DNA of 64,000 nt, from the NCBI GenBank assembly GCA_012729785.1, contig JAAYCL010000032.1, positions 1 to 64,000 of the forward strand, written 5' to 3'. Of this stretch, positions 57,014 through 63,560 are shown one piece after another. Below the pieces are notes generated by a model. That model searched no databases, was not told where the DNA came from, and saw nothing but the letters and a program-made list of their open reading frames with translations. Origin of the DNA: Chlamydiota bacterium. Lineage in GTDB: Bacteria; Auribacterota; Tritonobacteria; UBA1439. A program made the translations under genes and the position numbers. Within the stretch, counting starts at the first letter, position 1. Every line of letters starts with the position of its first letter.

Positions 57014-57175
57014 TTTCTCCTTCATGACCTCGCCGGCGCGGGGATTGACCCGCCCCGACGGTTTCGAATCGGCGTTGTATTCCCCGACCGCACCCTCCCC
57101 CGGTGCCCGCGCGAACCGCTCCGCCGTCTGGCTCCGGCATGCATTCTCGACGCAGACGAACAGGATCCGCTTCAT
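57014..57175 (-). pseudogene. 5' remnant of arsenate reductase (LMWP phosphatase type)
   Basis: The first 54 residues, ILFVCVENACRSQTAERFAR, GEYNADSKPSGRVNPRAGEV, MKEK, match ArsC of the thioredoxin-coupled, low-molecular-weight phosphatase fold, including the P-loop CVENACR (C-x5-R). Beyond that the frame stays open to 56723 but no longer resembles ArsC, and the redox cysteines near residues 80-90 are lost. ATGA overlap with acr3 shows it was the last gene of the operon. Confidence 0.68.
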
Positions 57176-58362
57176 GCCCCTGCCGCTTCCCGGAACCACC
57201 CCTTCGTTTTCGCGCAGATCCGGACCAGCCAGAGCATCACGGGCACCTCGATGAGCACCCCGACCACCGTGGCGAGCGCCGCCCCCGAGGAGAGGCCGAA
57301 GAGAAGCGTCGCGGTCGCGATGGCGACCTCGAAGTGGTTCGAGGCCCCGATCATGGCGCTCGGCGCCGCGTCCTCGTAGCCGAGGCGGAGGACCTTCGCC
57401 AGCCCGTAGGTGATCCAGAAGATCAGCATCGTCTGGAGGAAGAGCGGGATGGCGAGCCAGAGGATGGTGAGCGGATTGGCGGTGATGATCCCGCCCTTGA
57501 ACGAGAAGAGGAGGACGAGGGTGGCGAGGAGCGCGATGATGGTGACCGGGGTGAGGACGTGGAGGAACCGCTCCCTGAACCAGTCGATCCCCTTCGCCCT
57601 GACGATCCATCTCCGCGAGTAGTACCCCGCGACCAGGGGCAGCGCCACGTAGATCGCGATCGAGAGGACGAGCGCCTGCCACGGGACAGGGATGCGGCCG
57701 ACGCCGAGGAGGAAACCCCCGAGCGGCCCGTAGAGGACAAGCATCGTGAGCGAGTTGATCGCCACCATCACGAGCGTGTGCCCGTCGTTCCCCCTGGCGA
57801 GGTACCCCCAGACGAGGACCATCGCCGTGCAGGGGGCGATGCCGAGGAGGATGCAGCCGGCGAGGTAGCTCCGCCAGAGCGGCACCTCGAGCATCCTCGC
57901 CCCGTTGTGCAGCACGACCCTGCCCGCCCCGTAGACCGCCCCGAGGTCCAGGTTGAGCCCGAGCGGCATCTTCACGTGGTCCACCGCGTCGGCGCCTATG
58001 AAGCGGATGAACAGGGTCCCCAGGAAGAAGACCGCGATGGCATACATCGTGAACGGCTTGATCGCCCAGTTCGCGAAGAGGGTGAGCGCCACGGGCTTCG
58101 GCGTCCTGCCCGCCTTGATCACCTCCGCGAAGTCGATCTTCACCATGATCGGGTACATCATGAAGAAGAGGCAGATGGCGATGGGGATCGAGACCACCGG
58201 TGCGCCGCCCACGTGGATGGCGAGGCCGTCCAGGAACGTCGCGAGCCCCGGAGCGACCCGCCCGAGTCCGATCCCCGCGAGGATGCAGAGGATGACCCAG
58301 ACGGTCAGGTACCGCTCGAAGAACCCGAGCCCCCGCGCGACCGCTTTCGCCTCCGCGTTCAT
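57172..58362 (-). CDS. acr3: Arsenite efflux permease Acr3
   Basis: A 396-residue permease with ten membrane helices. [17 protein letters not shown] at the start, [16 protein letters not shown], and the conserved Cys in [20 protein letters not shown], plus [14 protein letters not shown] near the end are Acr3 features. It exports As(III) from the cytoplasm. Coupled by ATGA to arsM upstream and to the arsC remnant downstream. Confidence 0.93.
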
Positions 58363-59246
58363 CGTCCCGCCCTCCCCTTCCGCGCCTCCCTCCTCCCCGG
58401 CTCCGCCTTGACCGCCCTCACCTTGACGCTCAGGACCGACTCCTCCAGCTCCTTGAGCCGCGCGGGGTCCCTCCCGTACGCCTCGACGACCGCCCCGGCC
58501 GTCAGATCGTGCGCCATGTCGCCCATCGGGAAGACCTGCTCGTCGACGACGTCGACCTCCCCGAATCCGGCCGCCCGGACGGCCCCCAGGTACTCGTCCA
58601 CGAGGACCGCCCCCGAGATGCAGCCGACGTAGGCCGAGACGGAGTCCCGTATCTCCTGCGGCAGCTCCCTGCGCAGGACGATGTCGGAGACCACCAGCCG
58701 CCCGCCGGGCTTCAGGACCCTGAAGACCTCCCGGAACACCTTGCGCTTGTCGGGGGAGAGATTGATCACGCAGTTCGAGATGACGACGTCCACGGACGAG
58801 TCCTCGACGGGGAGCTTCTCGATCTCCCCGAGGCGGAACTCGACGTTCGCGAGCTCCCAGCTCTTCGCGTTCCCGCGCGCCTCCTCGATCATCTCGGGCG
58901 TCATGTCCACGCCGATCACCCTCCCCGTCCTCCCCACCCTGAGGGACGCGAGGAAGCAGTCGAAGCCGGCCCCCGAGCCGAGATCAAGGACTGTCTCGCC
59001 CTCCTTCAGGGAGGCGTGCGCGAGCGGGTTCCCGCATCCGAGGCCGAGGTTCGCCCCCTCGGGAACCGCCTTTAGATCCTTTTCCGAGTAACCGATGTTC
59101 GCGCTTATGGACTCGGCCGTGCCCCCCGAACAGCAGGAGGACGAAGGACCGCAGCACGACCCCTTCCCCTTCGCCACCTTGGCGTACCCCTCCCGAACGA
59201 ACCGCCGCATGCGGGCCCCGTCGGAACCGCCGCTCCCCTTCCTCAT
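58359..59246 (-). CDS. arsM: Arsenite S-adenosylmethionine methyltransferase ArsM
   Basis: A 295-residue enzyme that methylates As(III) to volatile or organic forms. SAM site [20 protein letters not shown]; arsenic-binding cysteines in [21 protein letters not shown] and [11 protein letters not shown], the three positions of known ArsM; extra Cys pairs [13 protein letters not shown] at the N-terminus. Product is methylarsenite, which the ArsP-like permease of this operon could export. Confidence 0.92.
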
Positions 59247-59247
59247 C

Positions 59248-59952
59248 TCATCCTCCCTCCCGCCGCTTCTTCTCCGCCATCCGCTCCCGCACCCACTCGA
59301 CCATCGCGCGGCCCTTCCGCATCTGCGCCCGCTCCTCCCCGGTCCTGGGCTCCTTTTCCGGATGCGTGACGCGCCAGCTGATCCTGCCCGTGAGCGGCGG
59401 CTTCCGCAGCGCCCCCGGGTCGAAGAGGCGATAGCCCCGGAACCCCGTCGGCTCCTCCTGGTAGCAGGCCTGCACCGCGCCCCTGACGAGGTCCGCGCCG
59501 CCCTCGTTCAGGAAGTCGATGAGCGTCACCTGCTCCCGGAACCGCTCGATATGCTCCATCGGGATGTTGAAGAGGTAGGGGGTGGGCGATTCCGAGCCGA
59601 TGATCCGCTTCCGCGCGTCCACGCCGTTTTTCAGGAGGGCGGCGACCGCCGCGCCCGTCAGGTGCCCCGGGGACTCGGGGCCGAGCTGGACGAGGTAGCG
59701 GATGTTCGGGTTCGCCGTGATATTGAGGATGACCTTCTCGAGGCCGATGTTCTCCGTCTGGAGCGTCCCGGCGAGGGCGGCGCCCGACTCGACCGCCGTG
59801 CGCACGAGCATCTCGTAGTCGGGGGGCGTCTCCTCCCGCCTGCGGTTGAGGATGACGCAGACGGCGACGGGGGAATAGTCGTTCCCGCGGAGGTAGCACC
59901 CCTCCTCGGGCGGGTACTCCGGCGACGGCTCGGCCTTGTGCGGATCAGTCAT
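59248..59952 (-). CDS. MtrA-like corrinoid protein (tetrahydromethanopterin S-methyltransferase subunit A homolog)
   Basis: A 234-residue soluble protein. SGAALAGTLQTENIGLEKVI, LNITANPNIRYLVQLGPESP, GHLTGAAVAALLKNGVDARK and RIIGSESPTPYL match MtrA, the corrinoid-carrying subunit of the methanogen methyltransferase. The His of GHLTG (His97) corresponds to the residue that ligates cobalt in MtrA. No membrane anchor and no other mtr genes are present. It lies between a small secreted-protein gene (ATGA overlap) and arsM (one base gap). A role as corrinoid methyl carrier in arsenic methylation is inferred. Confidence 0.8.
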   Translation of the reverse strand: MTDPHKAEPSPEYPPEEGCYLRGNDYSPVAVCVILNRRREETPPDYEMLVRTAVESGAALAGTLQTENIGLEKVILNITANPNIRYLVQLGPESPGHLTGAAVAALLKNGVDARKRIIGSESPTPYLFNIPMEHIERFREQVTLIDFLNEGGADLVRGAVQACYQEEPTGFRGYRLFDPGALRKPPLTGRISWRVTHPEKEPRTGEERAQMRKGRAMVEWVRERMAEKKRREGG

Positions 59953-60257
59953 GCGCCACTCCCCCCCCCGGCTGGCGCTTTCGTTTCTTCCGGGCCGGGG
60001 CGGGGGCTCTTCCCCCCGCCGGGCGGCGTCCCCGGGGGGCTCTGCGTCCTCTCTCCCGGCGGAGGATGTGACCGATCGCATATCCCGTCCTTGTCCGTGT
60101 CGACATACAGCCCGCACGCCCCCGGGGCCGGACCGTCCGACGTGCCCCGCGGGCACTGGTTCCAGTGCCCGCGGACGGGTGCGCCCGTGGCGGCGAGCAC
60201 GAGGACCGCGAGGAGCCAGCGCCACGGGTGCGCCTTCAGGTAAACCGTTGCGCACAT
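59949..60257 (-). CDS. Small secreted protein with DTDKDGICD motif
   Basis: A 102-residue protein with a hydrophobic signal region (PWRWLLAVLVLAATGAPVRG) and the motif CGLYVDTDKDGICDRS, which resembles calcium-binding thrombospondin-type-3/EF-loop repeats and the linkers of 4Fe-4S membrane proteins, followed by a Pro/Gly-rich tail. AAGGAGG supports the start. Coupled to the mtrA-like gene. Confidence 0.65.
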   Translation of the reverse strand: MCATVYLKAHPWRWLLAVLVLAATGAPVRGHWNQCPRGTSDGPAPGACGLYVDTDKDGICDRSHPPPGERTQSPPGTPPGGGKSPRPGPEETKAPAGGGSGA

Positions 60258-60331: not shown

Positions 60332-61030
60332 TCACGCCGTGAGGATGAGGTAGACCCCCCCGAGGATGACGAGGACGCCGCAGATCTTCCTGAGGATCAC
60401 CGCCCCGCCCGAGCGCTCGTTCCAGTTCAGGTAGTGCTGGACTGACTCGGTGAAGGTGCCCGCGAGCACGATCACCGCGCAGTGCCCGACGCCGTAGGCG
60501 AGGAGGAGCAGGATTCCGTACCAGAGGCGCGTCTCGGCGAGGCGGAACGTCACCGCGAGCATCGGGGCCATATAGGCGAAGGTGCACGGCCCCAGCGCGA
60601 CGCCGAACAGGAGCCCCAGGATGAAGGCGGCGAGGGCCCCGCGGCGCCGCATCCCGACCTGCCCCGGCCCGGACCACGGCATCGGGACGAGCCCGAGCAG
60701 GTGGAGCCCGACGACGATGAAGATGGCCGCGACGAGGTACGTCCCGTACGCCCCGATGTCGCCCAGCATCCTCCCGGCGGCCGCCGTAAGGACCCCGACC
60801 GCGGCGATGGTGAGCAGGATGCCCGTGGCGAAGAGCGTCGAGATCCAGAACGCCCTCCGCGTGGAGATCCGTCCCTGCTCGTCGACGAACCCCACGATGA
60901 GCGGGATGCTCGCGAGGTGGCAGGGGCTCAGGAGGATCGAGAGCAGGCCCCAGGCGAACGAGGCCGCAAGCGCCACGGACGCCGCCCCCTCGACCGCGTG
61001 CGTCAGGGAGATGAATACGCTCTCGAGCAT
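60332..61030 (-). CDS. ccdA: Cytochrome c biogenesis-type thiol-disulfide transporter CcdA
   Basis: A 232-residue six-helix protein with redox cysteines in LLSPCHLASIPLIVGF and ALGPCTFAYMAPMLA, the CcdA pattern. It carries reducing equivalents from cytoplasmic thioredoxin across the membrane. Here it follows an exported thioredoxin gene in the arsenic operon and probably keeps it reduced. Confidence 0.92.
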   Translation of the reverse strand: MLESVFISLTHAVEGAASVALAASFAWGLLSILLSPCHLASIPLIVGFVDEQGRISTRRAFWISTLFATGILLTIAAVGVLTAAAGRMLGDIGAYGTYLVAAIFIVVGLHLLGLVPMPWSGPGQVGMRRRGALAAFILGLLFGVALGPCTFAYMAPMLAVTFRLAETRLWYGILLLLAYGVGHCAVIVLAGTFTESVQHYLNWNERSGGAVILRKICGVLVILGGVYLILTA

Positions 61031-61049: not shown

Positions 61050-61475
61050 TCACTTCAGTTCGACGCCGAGCTTCCTCCACTGCGCGAGGATGTCGTCCCT
61101 CGACATGAACCCCTCGTGCCGGACGAGCTCCGTGCCGGAGGCGTCCAGAAAAACCTGCGTCGGGATGAGTCGGACGCCGTACTGCCGGGCGGCGTCCCGG
61201 TTGTCCCCGACGTCGATGAACTCCACGTCGAGGCGCCCCGCGTACTCCTTCTTCAGCTCGGCAAGGATCGGCGCCATTCTTTTGCACGGGATGCAGAACG
61301 TCCGCCCGAGGTCCACGAGCTTCGGCACGCCGCACGGGGCCTCCGACGCGGGGGTGGGCGTCGCGCCGACGTCCGCCGCGGGGGCACGACAGCATCCCCC
61401 GTCGGCGTACTGCCGTGCGGCCATGAGCGACGCGACACCGACGAGCGCCGCGAGTAAAAGCATCTTCTCCATCAT
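61050..61475 (-). CDS. Exported thioredoxin-like protein
   Basis: A 141-residue protein with an N-terminal hydrophobic helix, then VDLGRTFCIPCKRMAPILAE (CxxC about 61-64) and YGVRLIPTQVFLDASG (cis-Pro). ATGA overlap with the ArsP-like gene upstream. Its extra Cys (GGCCRAP, APCGVP) may be metal- or arsenic-binding. Presumed partner of CcdA. Confidence 0.88.
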   Translation of the reverse strand: MMEKMLLLAALVGVASLMAARQYADGGCCRAPAADVGATPTPASEAPCGVPKLVDLGRTFCIPCKRMAPILAELKKEYAGRLDVEFIDVGDNRDAARQYGVRLIPTQVFLDASGTELVRHEGFMSRDDILAQWRKLGVELK

Positions 61476-62773
61476 CCGATTCTCCCGTAGAGCATCCCGA
61501 CAACCGTGGACATCGCCACCACCAGGAGCACGAAGACCGCCGTCTTCTTCACCCCCAGCACGCTCCGTATGACGAGGATGCTCGGGATGGAGAGCGCCGG
61601 GCCGGCGAGCAGGAGCGCCAGCGAGGGCCCCTTCGCCATCCCCAGCTTCTGGAGGGCCTGGACGATGGGGATCTCCGTGAGCGTCGCGAAGTACCAGCAC
61701 GCCCCGATGGACGAGGCGACGAGGTTCGAGACGACCCCGTTGTCCCCGACGAGGCCCGCCACCGCCCGCTCAGGCACGAGCGCCGAGACGAAGCCCGTGA
61801 CGAAGACGCCTCCGAACAGGAGCGGCACGATCAGCTTTGAGAAGACCCAGGTCTGCGCCATCCACTCGCCGAACTCCGCCCGCGTGAACCAGGCGAGGCA
61901 CATCGCCCCGACCGCGAGCCCCATCAGGGCCGCGAGCCGCCAGCGGACCCGGTGGACCTTGACGGTGAAGCTCTCCTCCTGCGAGATCGAGCGGATATCC
62001 TCCCGCTTGAGCTCCAGATGCTCTCCCGCCTCGCCGTTCTTGAAGACCTGGAAGTTCACGACGTCGCGCGTGTCGTACCGGATGTTCCCCTTGAGCTCCC
62101 GGCCGTCGTGCATCACGACGGTGAAGTTGCCGGGCGTGGCCCAGTCCGAGAAGACGAGGAAGAGCACCATGCAGAGGAAGAAGAGGGAGGTCTTCCAGAG
62201 GGGGCGCGCGGAGGGGTGCTCGACGAGGGCGAACCCCTCCGCCCTGCGCGTCTCGCCCCGGCGGAAGATGACCGCCATCAGGAGGCCGATGACCACGGCG
62301 AAGACCACGGACCCCGCGACGCGCCAGACGCCGAGCTCGAAGCCGAGCACGCGCGCCGAGAGGAAGATCGCCATCACGTTGATCGCCGGGCCCGAGTAGA
62401 GGAAGGCGCAGGCGGGCCCCAGGCCCGCCCCCATCGTGTAGATCCCCGCGAACATCGGGAGCACGCTGCACGAGCAGACCGCCAGGATGCACCCCGAGAC
62501 GGAGGCGACGCCGTAGGCGACCGCCTTGTTCGAGCGGGGGCCGAGGTGCTTCAGGACGGCGGCCTGCGACAGGAACGCCGCGATCGCCCCCGCGATGAAC
62601 ATCGCCGGGACGACGCACGGGAGCGTGTGGTTGCGCGCGTACCACTGGAGGAGGCGGAACGCCTCCGTCAAGGCGGCGTCGAACCTCGGGCTCCCGAGCG
62701 GCACGAAGTACGCGAATACGAACACCCCGGCGAGCAGGGCGAATGTGCCCGCCTCCCTGCGGTTCACGGTCAT
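61472..62773 (-). CDS. ArsP/YraQ-like (DUF318) permease, likely organoarsenical efflux
   Basis: A 433-residue permease. SGCILAVCSCSVLPMFAGIY and YSGPAINVMAIFLSARVLGF early, then GACWYFATLTEIPIVQALQK and LLLAGPALSIPSILVIRSVL, fit the DUF318/ArsP family, with its two cysteines in CSCS. Between the halves (about 210-270) is a soluble beta-rich insert, HDGRELKGNIRYDTRDVVNF, not typical of ArsP. ArsP exports methylarsenite, matching arsM in the same operon. Confidence 0.82.
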   Translation of the reverse strand: MTVNRREAGTFALLAGVFVFAYFVPLGSPRFDAALTEAFRLLQWYARNHTLPCVVPAMFIAGAIAAFLSQAAVLKHLGPRSNKAVAYGVASVSGCILAVCSCSVLPMFAGIYTMGAGLGPACAFLYSGPAINVMAIFLSARVLGFELGVWRVAGSVVFAVVIGLLMAVIFRRGETRRAEGFALVEHPSARPLWKTSLFFLCMVLFLVFSDWATPGNFTVVMHDGRELKGNIRYDTRDVVNFQVFKNGEAGEHLELKREDIRSISQEESFTVKVHRVRWRLAALMGLAVGAMCLAWFTRAEFGEWMAQTWVFSKLIVPLLFGGVFVTGFVSALVPERAVAGLVGDNGVVSNLVASSIGACWYFATLTEIPIVQALQKLGMAKGPSLALLLAGPALSIPSILVIRSVLGVKKTAVFVLLVVAMSTVVGMLYGRIG

Positions 62774-62792: not shown

Positions 62793-63029
62793 TCACCCCC
62801 CCGGGAACAACCTCTTGATCTCCTCCGCCCCCGGCACCTTCCCCGCGCTCCTCACGACGCCGTCGACGGCGAGGGCGGGCGTGATCATCACCCCCCGCTT
62901 CACGATCTCCGTGAGCTCCGTCACCTTGACGATCTCCGCCTGCACGCCCGCCTCCCGCACCGCCTGCTCGGCGTTGGCGAGGAGCTGCGCGCACTTCGGG
63001 CACCCGGTGCCGAGGATCTCGATCTTCAT
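62793..63029 (-). CDS. Small thioredoxin/glutaredoxin-like protein (TM0996/MTH895 type)
   Basis: A 78-residue protein: IEILGTGCPKCAQLLANAEQ (CxxC at 10-13), EIVKVTELTEIVKRGVMITP and ALAVDGVVRSAGKVPGAEEI, the redox-active disulfide protein 2 family. Likely a cytoplasmic redox carrier for the operon. GGAGG supports the start at 63029. Confidence 0.86.
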   Translation of the reverse strand: MKIEILGTGCPKCAQLLANAEQAVREAGVQAEIVKVTELTEIVKRGVMITPALAVDGVVRSAGKVPGAEEIKRLFPGG

Positions 63030-63052
63030 GACGGCCTCCATAGATGTATCGT

Positions 63053-63088: not shown

Positions 63089-63442
63089 CTATCTCCTCGG
63101 ACACAGAACCTCCCTGCGCGCGGCGCGGAGCTTTTCTCGGTCGTCTGCGATCTGGGGATCCTCGTTTCCCCACCGCCCCAGTGTTGCGAGCAGCGTATCG
63201 CCCGCCTCGCTCATCCCGCGCGACAGCGAGTAGATCGTCCACTGCCCGTTCTTCACGTCCTGGACGAACCCCGCATTCCGAAGGATCGAAAGGTGGCGGG
63301 AGACGCTCGACTGCGCGATCCCCATCACATGCGTGATCTCGCAGACGCAGAGCGGCCGCACCTCGAGCATCTTGAGGATGCGGAGGCGGTTCCGGTCGGC
63401 GAAGGCCTTGAACTTCCTCTCGATTTCTCTCATTGCCGTCAT
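63089..63442 (-). CDS. arsR: ArsR-family arsenic-responsive repressor
   Basis: A 117-residue winged-helix protein: FKAFADRNRLRILKMLEVRP, then LCVCEITHVMGIAQSSVSRH (the LCVC As(III)-binding cysteines in the recognition region) and LSILRNAGFVQDVKNGQWTI. First gene of the arsenic operon and its likely autorepressor. A start nine bases later is possible. Confidence 0.92.
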   Translation of the reverse strand: MTAMREIERKFKAFADRNRLRILKMLEVRPLCVCEITHVMGIAQSSVSRHLSILRNAGFVQDVKNGQWTIYSLSRGMSEAGDTLLATLGRWGNEDPQIADDREKLRAARREVLCPRR

Positions 63443-63453
63443 ATCGCCATATC

Positions 63454-63469
63454 CATATCTTTCTATATG
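63454..63469. promoter_or_regulatory. Candidate ArsR operator upstream of arsR
   Basis: Inverted repeat CATAT-CTTTCT-ATATG, with another CATATC just beside it, immediately before the arsR start. ArsR/SmtB proteins commonly bind AT-rich dyads of this size. Confidence 0.5.
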
Positions 63470-63560
63470 ATCCCACACCCGACACTCGGTGTCAATACCC
63501 GCGTGAGATATTTTTTGCCGCAGGGCTGACGTGCGTCTGCCTTCACCCCGGCACAATCCC

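Follow-up and report, generated by a model that had tools for sequence, protein, structure and literature searches.

A putative MtrA-fold corrinoid protein associated with arsP cassettes of two phyla

Introduction

What is a relative of MtrA, the corrinoid subunit of a methanogen methyltransferase, doing among the arsenic-resistance genes of an uncultured anaerobic bacterium? The question arises from a 64,000-nt stretch of DNA (the window; positions 1 to 64,000, forward strand, of contig JAAYCL010000032.1, assembly GCA_012729785.1), in which an mtrA-like gene lies within an ars operon. Straighthead disease of rice is governed by methylated arsenic, which vanishes in flooded paddy soil. The only arsenic demethylase named in the literature that we searched is ArsI, an oxygenase; methylotrophic methanogens demethylate DMAs(III), by a mechanism that was called unclear (PMC10579292). 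ArsP exports trivalent methylarsenicals and confers methylarsenite resistance, and its co-evolution with arsM has been reported (PMC11653729). A corrinoid gene tied to a methylarsenical exporter would be a named candidate for anaerobic methylarsenic turnover, and B12-based handling of methylated arsenic is a concrete, testable idea.

Cobalamin-dependent arsenic methylation is already known as a side reaction of methanogens, in which MtaA incidentally methylates arsenic with methylcobalamin (PMC13262295, PMC6950371). Together with the methanogen demethylation of dimethylarsenic, these reports make the statement of the initial annotation, that chemistry of this kind has no described mechanism, too strong. 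A dedicated link between an MtrA-like corrinoid gene and arsP is another matter: we found no earlier report of one in the open-access literature searched, and one may exist elsewhere.

Results

The mtrA-like gene is the seventh of nine closely packed genes, all in one direction, in the order arsR, arsE, arsP, thioredoxin, DsbD-type, small secreted protein, mtrA, arsM and acr3. A sigma-70-like promoter (63467..63495, (-); TTGACA-17-GATCAT, a consensus match only) stands ahead of the arsR repressor gene (63089..63442, (-); a probable start, as the ORF is open to 63556). The next gene encodes an ArsE/MTH895-family cytoplasmic thioredoxin-like protein with a CPKC motif (62793..63041, (-); 98 bits against an ArsE-family cut-off of 62), followed by an ArsP-family permease (61472..62773, (-); PF03773, E 2e-71, 241 bits). 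PF03773 includes permeases for other substrates, and the NCBIfam models NF033936 and NF040736 matched below their cut-offs; we treat the permease as a candidate exporter of trivalent organoarsenicals. An exported thioredoxin-like protein with an N-terminal hydrophobic signal and CIPC (61050..61472, (-)) and a DsbD/CcdA-type membrane electron-transfer protein (60332..61030, (-)), weakly ArsG-like at 49.5 bits against a cut-off of 200, are encoded ahead of a small predicted secreted protein with a signal peptide and the motif CGLYVDTDKDGICD (59949..60257, (-)). This last protein matched no Pfam or NCBIfam family and had no relative at the other loci.

The start of mtrA overlaps the stop of the secreted-protein ORF by 4 bases, and a single base (59247) separates mtrA from the start of arsM, the gene for an arsenite SAM methyltransferase (58359..59246, (-); NF008823, 353 bits); acr3, encoding an arsenite exporter, completes the operon (57172..58362, (-); TIGR00832, 373 bits). 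The arsenic methylation and export setting described in the initial annotation, and the one-base spacing to arsM, were thus borne out, the former by profile matches to ArsM, Acr3, the ArsP-family permease, ArsR and the ArsE-family thioredoxin. Near the operons searched, neither a B12 riboswitch nor any other RNA family was detected. Contamination was considered and rejected: the 65-kb contig carries rpsP/rimM/trmD/rplS-like bacterial genes ~4 kb from mtrA, and four more genomes of the family have the gene too.

The mtrA-like gene (59248..59952, (-)) encodes a protein of 234 aa, with an MtrA cobalamin-binding domain at residues 6-171, a conserved C-terminal extension at about 173-232 and no transmembrane helix. 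Its identity as an MtrA homologue, also proposed from the first reading of the DNA, was confirmed by PF04208 (E 1.2e-39, 136 bits against a cut-off of 25, profile positions 1-156 of 173), by a score above the cut-off of the NCBIfam subfamily NF002126, and by its best matches among solved structures, which were soluble domains of methanogen MtrA (PDB 5LAA, E 3.2e-35). A Pfam scan at E 0.001 returned PF04208 only; the HgcA/CdhD-type corrinoid domain PF03599 was not found. The protein is the single MtrA of a 2.59-Mb genome that is 97% complete. The close relatives that carry a name are Candidatus Auribacterota MAGs, which makes the organism a bacterium of the PVC group. Against TIGR01111, the equivalog model of methanogen Mtr subunit A, it scored 126.8 bits, below the cut-off of 249, and MtrH was absent from all 14 genomes tested, the window genome among them, while methanogen controls were positive. 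The absence of MtrH leads us to conclude that the protein does not form part of a methanogen Mtr complex.

In the crystal structure of MtrA, His84 is the cobalt ligand and Glu54 its hydrogen-bond partner, Thr53, Asn55, Gly57 and Asn64 contact cobalamin, and a 'meander', GAIPY/FxEN, linked to the ligand, is among the most conserved regions (PMC4915002). The histidine of GPESPGH in the window protein corresponds to His84, so the retention of the cobalt ligand noted at first reading stands, and Thr53, Glu54, Asn55, Gly57, Asn64 and the ligand His could be aligned and were kept in all nine orthologues, the window's included. The meander reads (S/A)P(T/A)PYLFN in the same nine proteins. The segment ahead of TENxG is longer in this clade, and where methanogen MtrA has a linker and a membrane helix, these proteins have a C-terminal extension with WRVT, which is not hydrophobic (hydropathy <=0.06 in the orthologues checked). 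TLQTENIG, GPESPGH, PYLFN and WRVT together make up a sequence signature of the clade. Values of dN/dS among family members were 0.05-0.19, indicating purifying selection. AlphaFold models of the window protein, by itself or combined with three close relatives, reached pLDDT 35-36 and pTM 0.27-0.34 on a shallow alignment. As judged from its sequence, the protein is under constraint and looks able to bind a cobamide.

Cobamides are probably in use in the window organism, since its genome encodes a MetH-like protein with pterin and B12 domains; pterin-binding and B12 proteins are present in the carriers. The window genome also gave 23 B12-binding-domain matches over many contigs, mostly in proteins of 450-800 residues that are probably radical-SAM enzymes.

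We examined the distribution of the gene, using loci that came mostly from metagenome-assembled genomes. It was present in five of six genomes of the window's own family and in none of the phylum's other 38 genomes. A domain-wide sample yielded one more close relative, in genome G217 (57% identity); a second such sample gave the same genomes again. Within the small phylum of G217, three more members were found, at 59-61% overall identity to the window protein. Searches of the phyla of G140, G117 and G254 gave no further clade member and only one more distant MtrA match, and a scan of viral contigs gave no relative. The reach of the clade was sampled by 929 genome searches, a figure that includes repeats and is not exhaustive.

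The nine orthologues from two phyla formed one clade (100/100 support), distinct from both methanogen MtrA and a second bacterial type, and an ArsP-family permease gene accompanied mtrA at all nine loci. ArsE was present in 7/7 loci where the contig reaches, a DsbD-type protein in eight of the nine and acr3 in seven of the nine. Cassette gene order is not the same in the two phyla, a difference that argues for selected association rather than simple inheritance of a common block. With each phylum counted as one independent event, the probability that mtrA adjoins arsP by chance in both lineages would be roughly of order 3e-5.

In the second phylum, one cassette carries a gene for an RseC/MucC-family protein, of the SoxR-reducing system type, directly after mtrA (L033:8604-9122). 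The exported thioredoxins of this phylum (L032:6312-7328 and L033:9119-10135) have a SurA-like N-terminal domain, matched in L032; the fusion is unusual and adjoins the DsbD-type protein. A PF11449 (ArsP_2) 10-TM heavy-metal exporter (L034:6483-7499) is encoded near the arsP_1/mtrA cassette of G392.

The association of mtrA is with arsP and arsE rather than with arsM. Recurrence beside arsM/arsP was the check proposed in the initial annotation; it held for arsP throughout. The arsM gene adjoins mtrA at three of the nine loci (window, L003 and L017) and is missing from all four cassettes of the second phylum. Another arsR follows mtrA in L002 and L016; in the latter, arsM and acr3 lie ~5 kb further along. 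ArsM is encoded by seven of the nine carriers, two of them second-phylum genomes that have it elsewhere; G217 and G392 (assemblies 87-91% complete) had no ArsM reaching the cut-off. Conversely, in G024, which belongs to the window's genus, the same flanking genes surround arsR-arsM-acr3 without the arsE-arsP-thioredoxin-DsbD-mtrA module (L043, G024:C291). The G024 assembly is 80% complete and the syntenic locus is contiguous, and the site provides a natural with/without comparison for the module. A Leptolinea plasmid carries an arsR-arsE-permease triad without mtrA. From the arsM-less cassettes, the G024 arsM without the module and the Leptolinea triad without mtrA, we conclude that mtrA is an accessory of the ArsP/ArsE system.

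The coupling of mtrA to the secreted-protein gene, also pointed out in the initial annotation, is real in the window, where the two ORFs overlap, and is not conserved: the slot upstream of mtrA is empty in L002 and L003, and in L016 and L017 it holds a gene for an ArsF-family protein, above the NCBIfam cut-off and unrelated to the window's secreted protein. Both arsM and the secreted protein were accordingly rejected as the core link, neither being conserved. No ArsF-family match was found in the window. The cassette is a partial relative of the ArsEFG organoarsenical system; the window does not hold the full ArsE+ArsF+ArsG set.

A second MtrA type has a cysteine-rich N-terminus, an MtrA domain with the ligand His and a DUF4346 C-terminus (the NF002128/PF14251 architecture). 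Examples are L019:7350-8729, L026:7687-8835, L025:5480-6619, L024:1807-2955, L022:7662-9056 and L021:7671-8852, several of them beside metal-efflux genes: ArsR and a ZntA-like ATPase in L026, ArsR and a P-type ATPase in L019 (Planococcus plasmid pA30H1), and RND and MerR genes in L025. MtrA domains as a family are not arsenic-specific. The concern voiced at first reading, that homologues might lie mostly in non-arsenic settings, therefore applies to MtrA domains at large, and not to the window's clade, which was found in ars cassettes only. These loci hint that corrinoid proteins may have a part in metal resistance more broadly.

Discussion

The explanation that we prefer, at a probability of roughly 0.35, is that the gene encodes a cytoplasmic MtrA-fold corrinoid carrier whose dedicated task is to detoxify methylarsenicals under anoxia and which would move a methyl group between cobalt and arsenic, with demethylation favoured. 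Just as tentatively, the cassettes would constitute a dedicated corrinoid-dependent C-As bond system of anaerobe ars operons, taking methyl off arsenic (or putting it on) without oxygen or SAM, with ArsP and ArsE as partners. Both cobamide binding and the movement of methyl between Co and As are what we infer from the protein's sequence and its neighbours.

As we picture it, arsR, arsE and arsP, usually with the thioredoxin, the DsbD-type protein and acr3, would act as an organoarsenical-resistance cassette. Cob(I)amide on the MtrA-like protein would take the methyl off a methylarsenical, formally CH3-As(V) + Co(I) -> As(III) + CH3-Co(III). The arsenite produced would leave through Acr3, and any methylarsenical left undemethylated through ArsP; thioredoxins would hold the arsenicals in a reduced state, and a cellular acceptor, for example the MetH pathway, would receive the methyl group. 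The net effect would be the job of ArsI, a dioxygenase, minus the oxygen. We weakly favour this demethylating direction, as an oxygen-independent counterpart of ArsI, because ArsM is already encoded by seven of the nine carriers, because the mtrA-arsP pair persists in those without ArsM, and because acr3 is usually present to export arsenite.

This explanation draws support from the cobalamin-site residues kept in every orthologue, from the single arsP-linked clade, and from the two-way separation of module and arsM, in arsM-less cassettes and in G024. It is also supported by the methylcobalamin-dependent methylation and the anaerobic demethylation of arsenic documented in methanogens (PMC13262295, PMC10579292). 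Several observations stand against it. The formal Co(I) route to arsenite needs As(V), and the substrate reported for methanogens is trivalent (PMC10579292). Demethylation beside arsM would be a partly futile cycle, the specificity of ArsP is itself inferred from family membership, and distant MtrA relatives occur at metal-efflux loci where methyl chemistry is not apparent. The cassette has no recognisable second methyltransferase, reactivase or ferredoxin as a low-potential reductant for cob(I). Thioredoxins are unlikely to attain the potential that cob(I) requires.

Alternatively, the protein may transfer no methyl group at all: with a cobamide bound, it would act as a sensor, chaperone or redox centre and aid ArsP and ArsE with toxic metal(loid)s, a role it might have in common with the MtrA-DUF4346 proteins. 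We regard this as a serious, if still doubtful, alternative. The cassette is without a methyltransferase partner; the meander, which in MtrA couples the state of the ligand to partner subunits, is rewritten here; and in other phyla, as well as on the Planococcus plasmid, MtrA-domain proteins with CxxC motifs are neighbours of P-type ATPases, ArsR, RND or MerR. Retention of the ligand and of the full set of cobalamin contacts speaks against it, and since the two MtrA types form separate clades, a shared role is only a guess.

The carrier might also run in the opposite direction. Methyl-tetrahydrofolate, via MetH or similar, would then charge the MtrA-like protein, which would methylate arsenite for export of methylarsenite through ArsP, as a corrinoid counterpart of ArsM and the arsenic analogue of HgcA. 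ArsP exports methylarsenite and reportedly co-evolved with arsM (PMC11653729), yet two carriers have arsP and mtrA and no detectable arsM; methanogen systems do methylate arsenic with methylcobalamin (PMC13262295), and the pterin-binding and B12 proteins of the carriers could feed such a pathway. We nevertheless consider it unlikely: the activity would be redundant in the seven ArsM-encoding carriers, neither MtrH nor any other dedicated methyl donor adjoins the gene, and under anoxia methylarsenite is more toxic than arsenite. A protein serving arsM, by regenerating its methyl donor or demethylating its products, is less probable again; the contiguity of mtrA and arsM in the window, L003 and L017 invites the idea, and the four cassettes without arsM, the separate arsR after mtrA in L002 and L016, and the arsM of G024 without mtrA all tell against it. 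Least credible is a C1-metabolism gene fortuitously caught in the operon, for although MtrA homologues are found in many archaea and bacteria and are thought to supply methyl groups to C1 pathways (PMC9635834), no C1 genes lie near mtrA and all nine orthologues sit in arsP cassettes of differing order, at the low chance estimated above.

If the preferred explanation, a corrinoid carrier for methylarsenicals, is true, it would supply an anaerobic counterpart of ArsI or ArsM, offer a first candidate role for the orphan MtrA homologues of non-methanogens, and tie B12 chemistry to metal(loid) resistance as something selected for rather than incidental.

How does the protein compare with known systems? 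ArsM and ArsI likewise act on methylarsenicals, and arsM shares the window operon; however, ArsM uses SAM, ArsI is a dioxygenase whose demethylation is oxygen-dependent, and neither has a corrinoid or any sequence in common with the MtrA-like protein. In corrinoid mercury methylation by HgcA and arsenic methylation by MtaA, as in our proposal, a corrinoid carries the methyl group and the metal(loid) is toxic, but no sequence relation was found to either, and the MtaA activity is incidental and not that of a dedicated ars gene. ArsEFG, which reduces and effluxes nitroaryl-arsenicals, has an ArsE-family thioredoxin in common with the cassettes, as well as the ArsF-family protein beside mtrA in L016 and L017; unlike it, the window has no ArsF, and its DsbD-type protein falls under the curated ArsG cut-off. 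We know of no MtrA described in ArsEFG systems.

Among MtrA proteins, those with DUF4346 at metal-efflux loci resemble the window protein in the MtrA domain, the ligand His and the metal-resistance neighbours, but form a separate clade with a cysteine-rich N-terminus, and their partners are P-type ATPases or RND systems, not ArsP. The cytoplasmic homologues of bacteria and non-methanogenic archaea (NF002126, whose cut-off the window protein passes) are likewise short and soluble with the ligand His; those in PMC4915002, PMC9635834 and PMC11291895 are linked to C1 metabolism or are unassigned, and none is described as part of an arsenic operon. With MtrA of the methanogen methyl-H4MPT:CoM methyltransferase (PDB 5LAA, 5L8X, 8Q3V), the window protein shares the fold, as judged by sequence (38-43% core identity), the His84 ligand, its Glu54 link and the nucleotide-pocket residues. 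In contrast to that subunit, it is soluble, with no C-terminal membrane helix and no MtrH in the genome, has a rewritten meander, a longer segment before TENxG and a C-terminal extension of its own, and is encoded in an ars operon.
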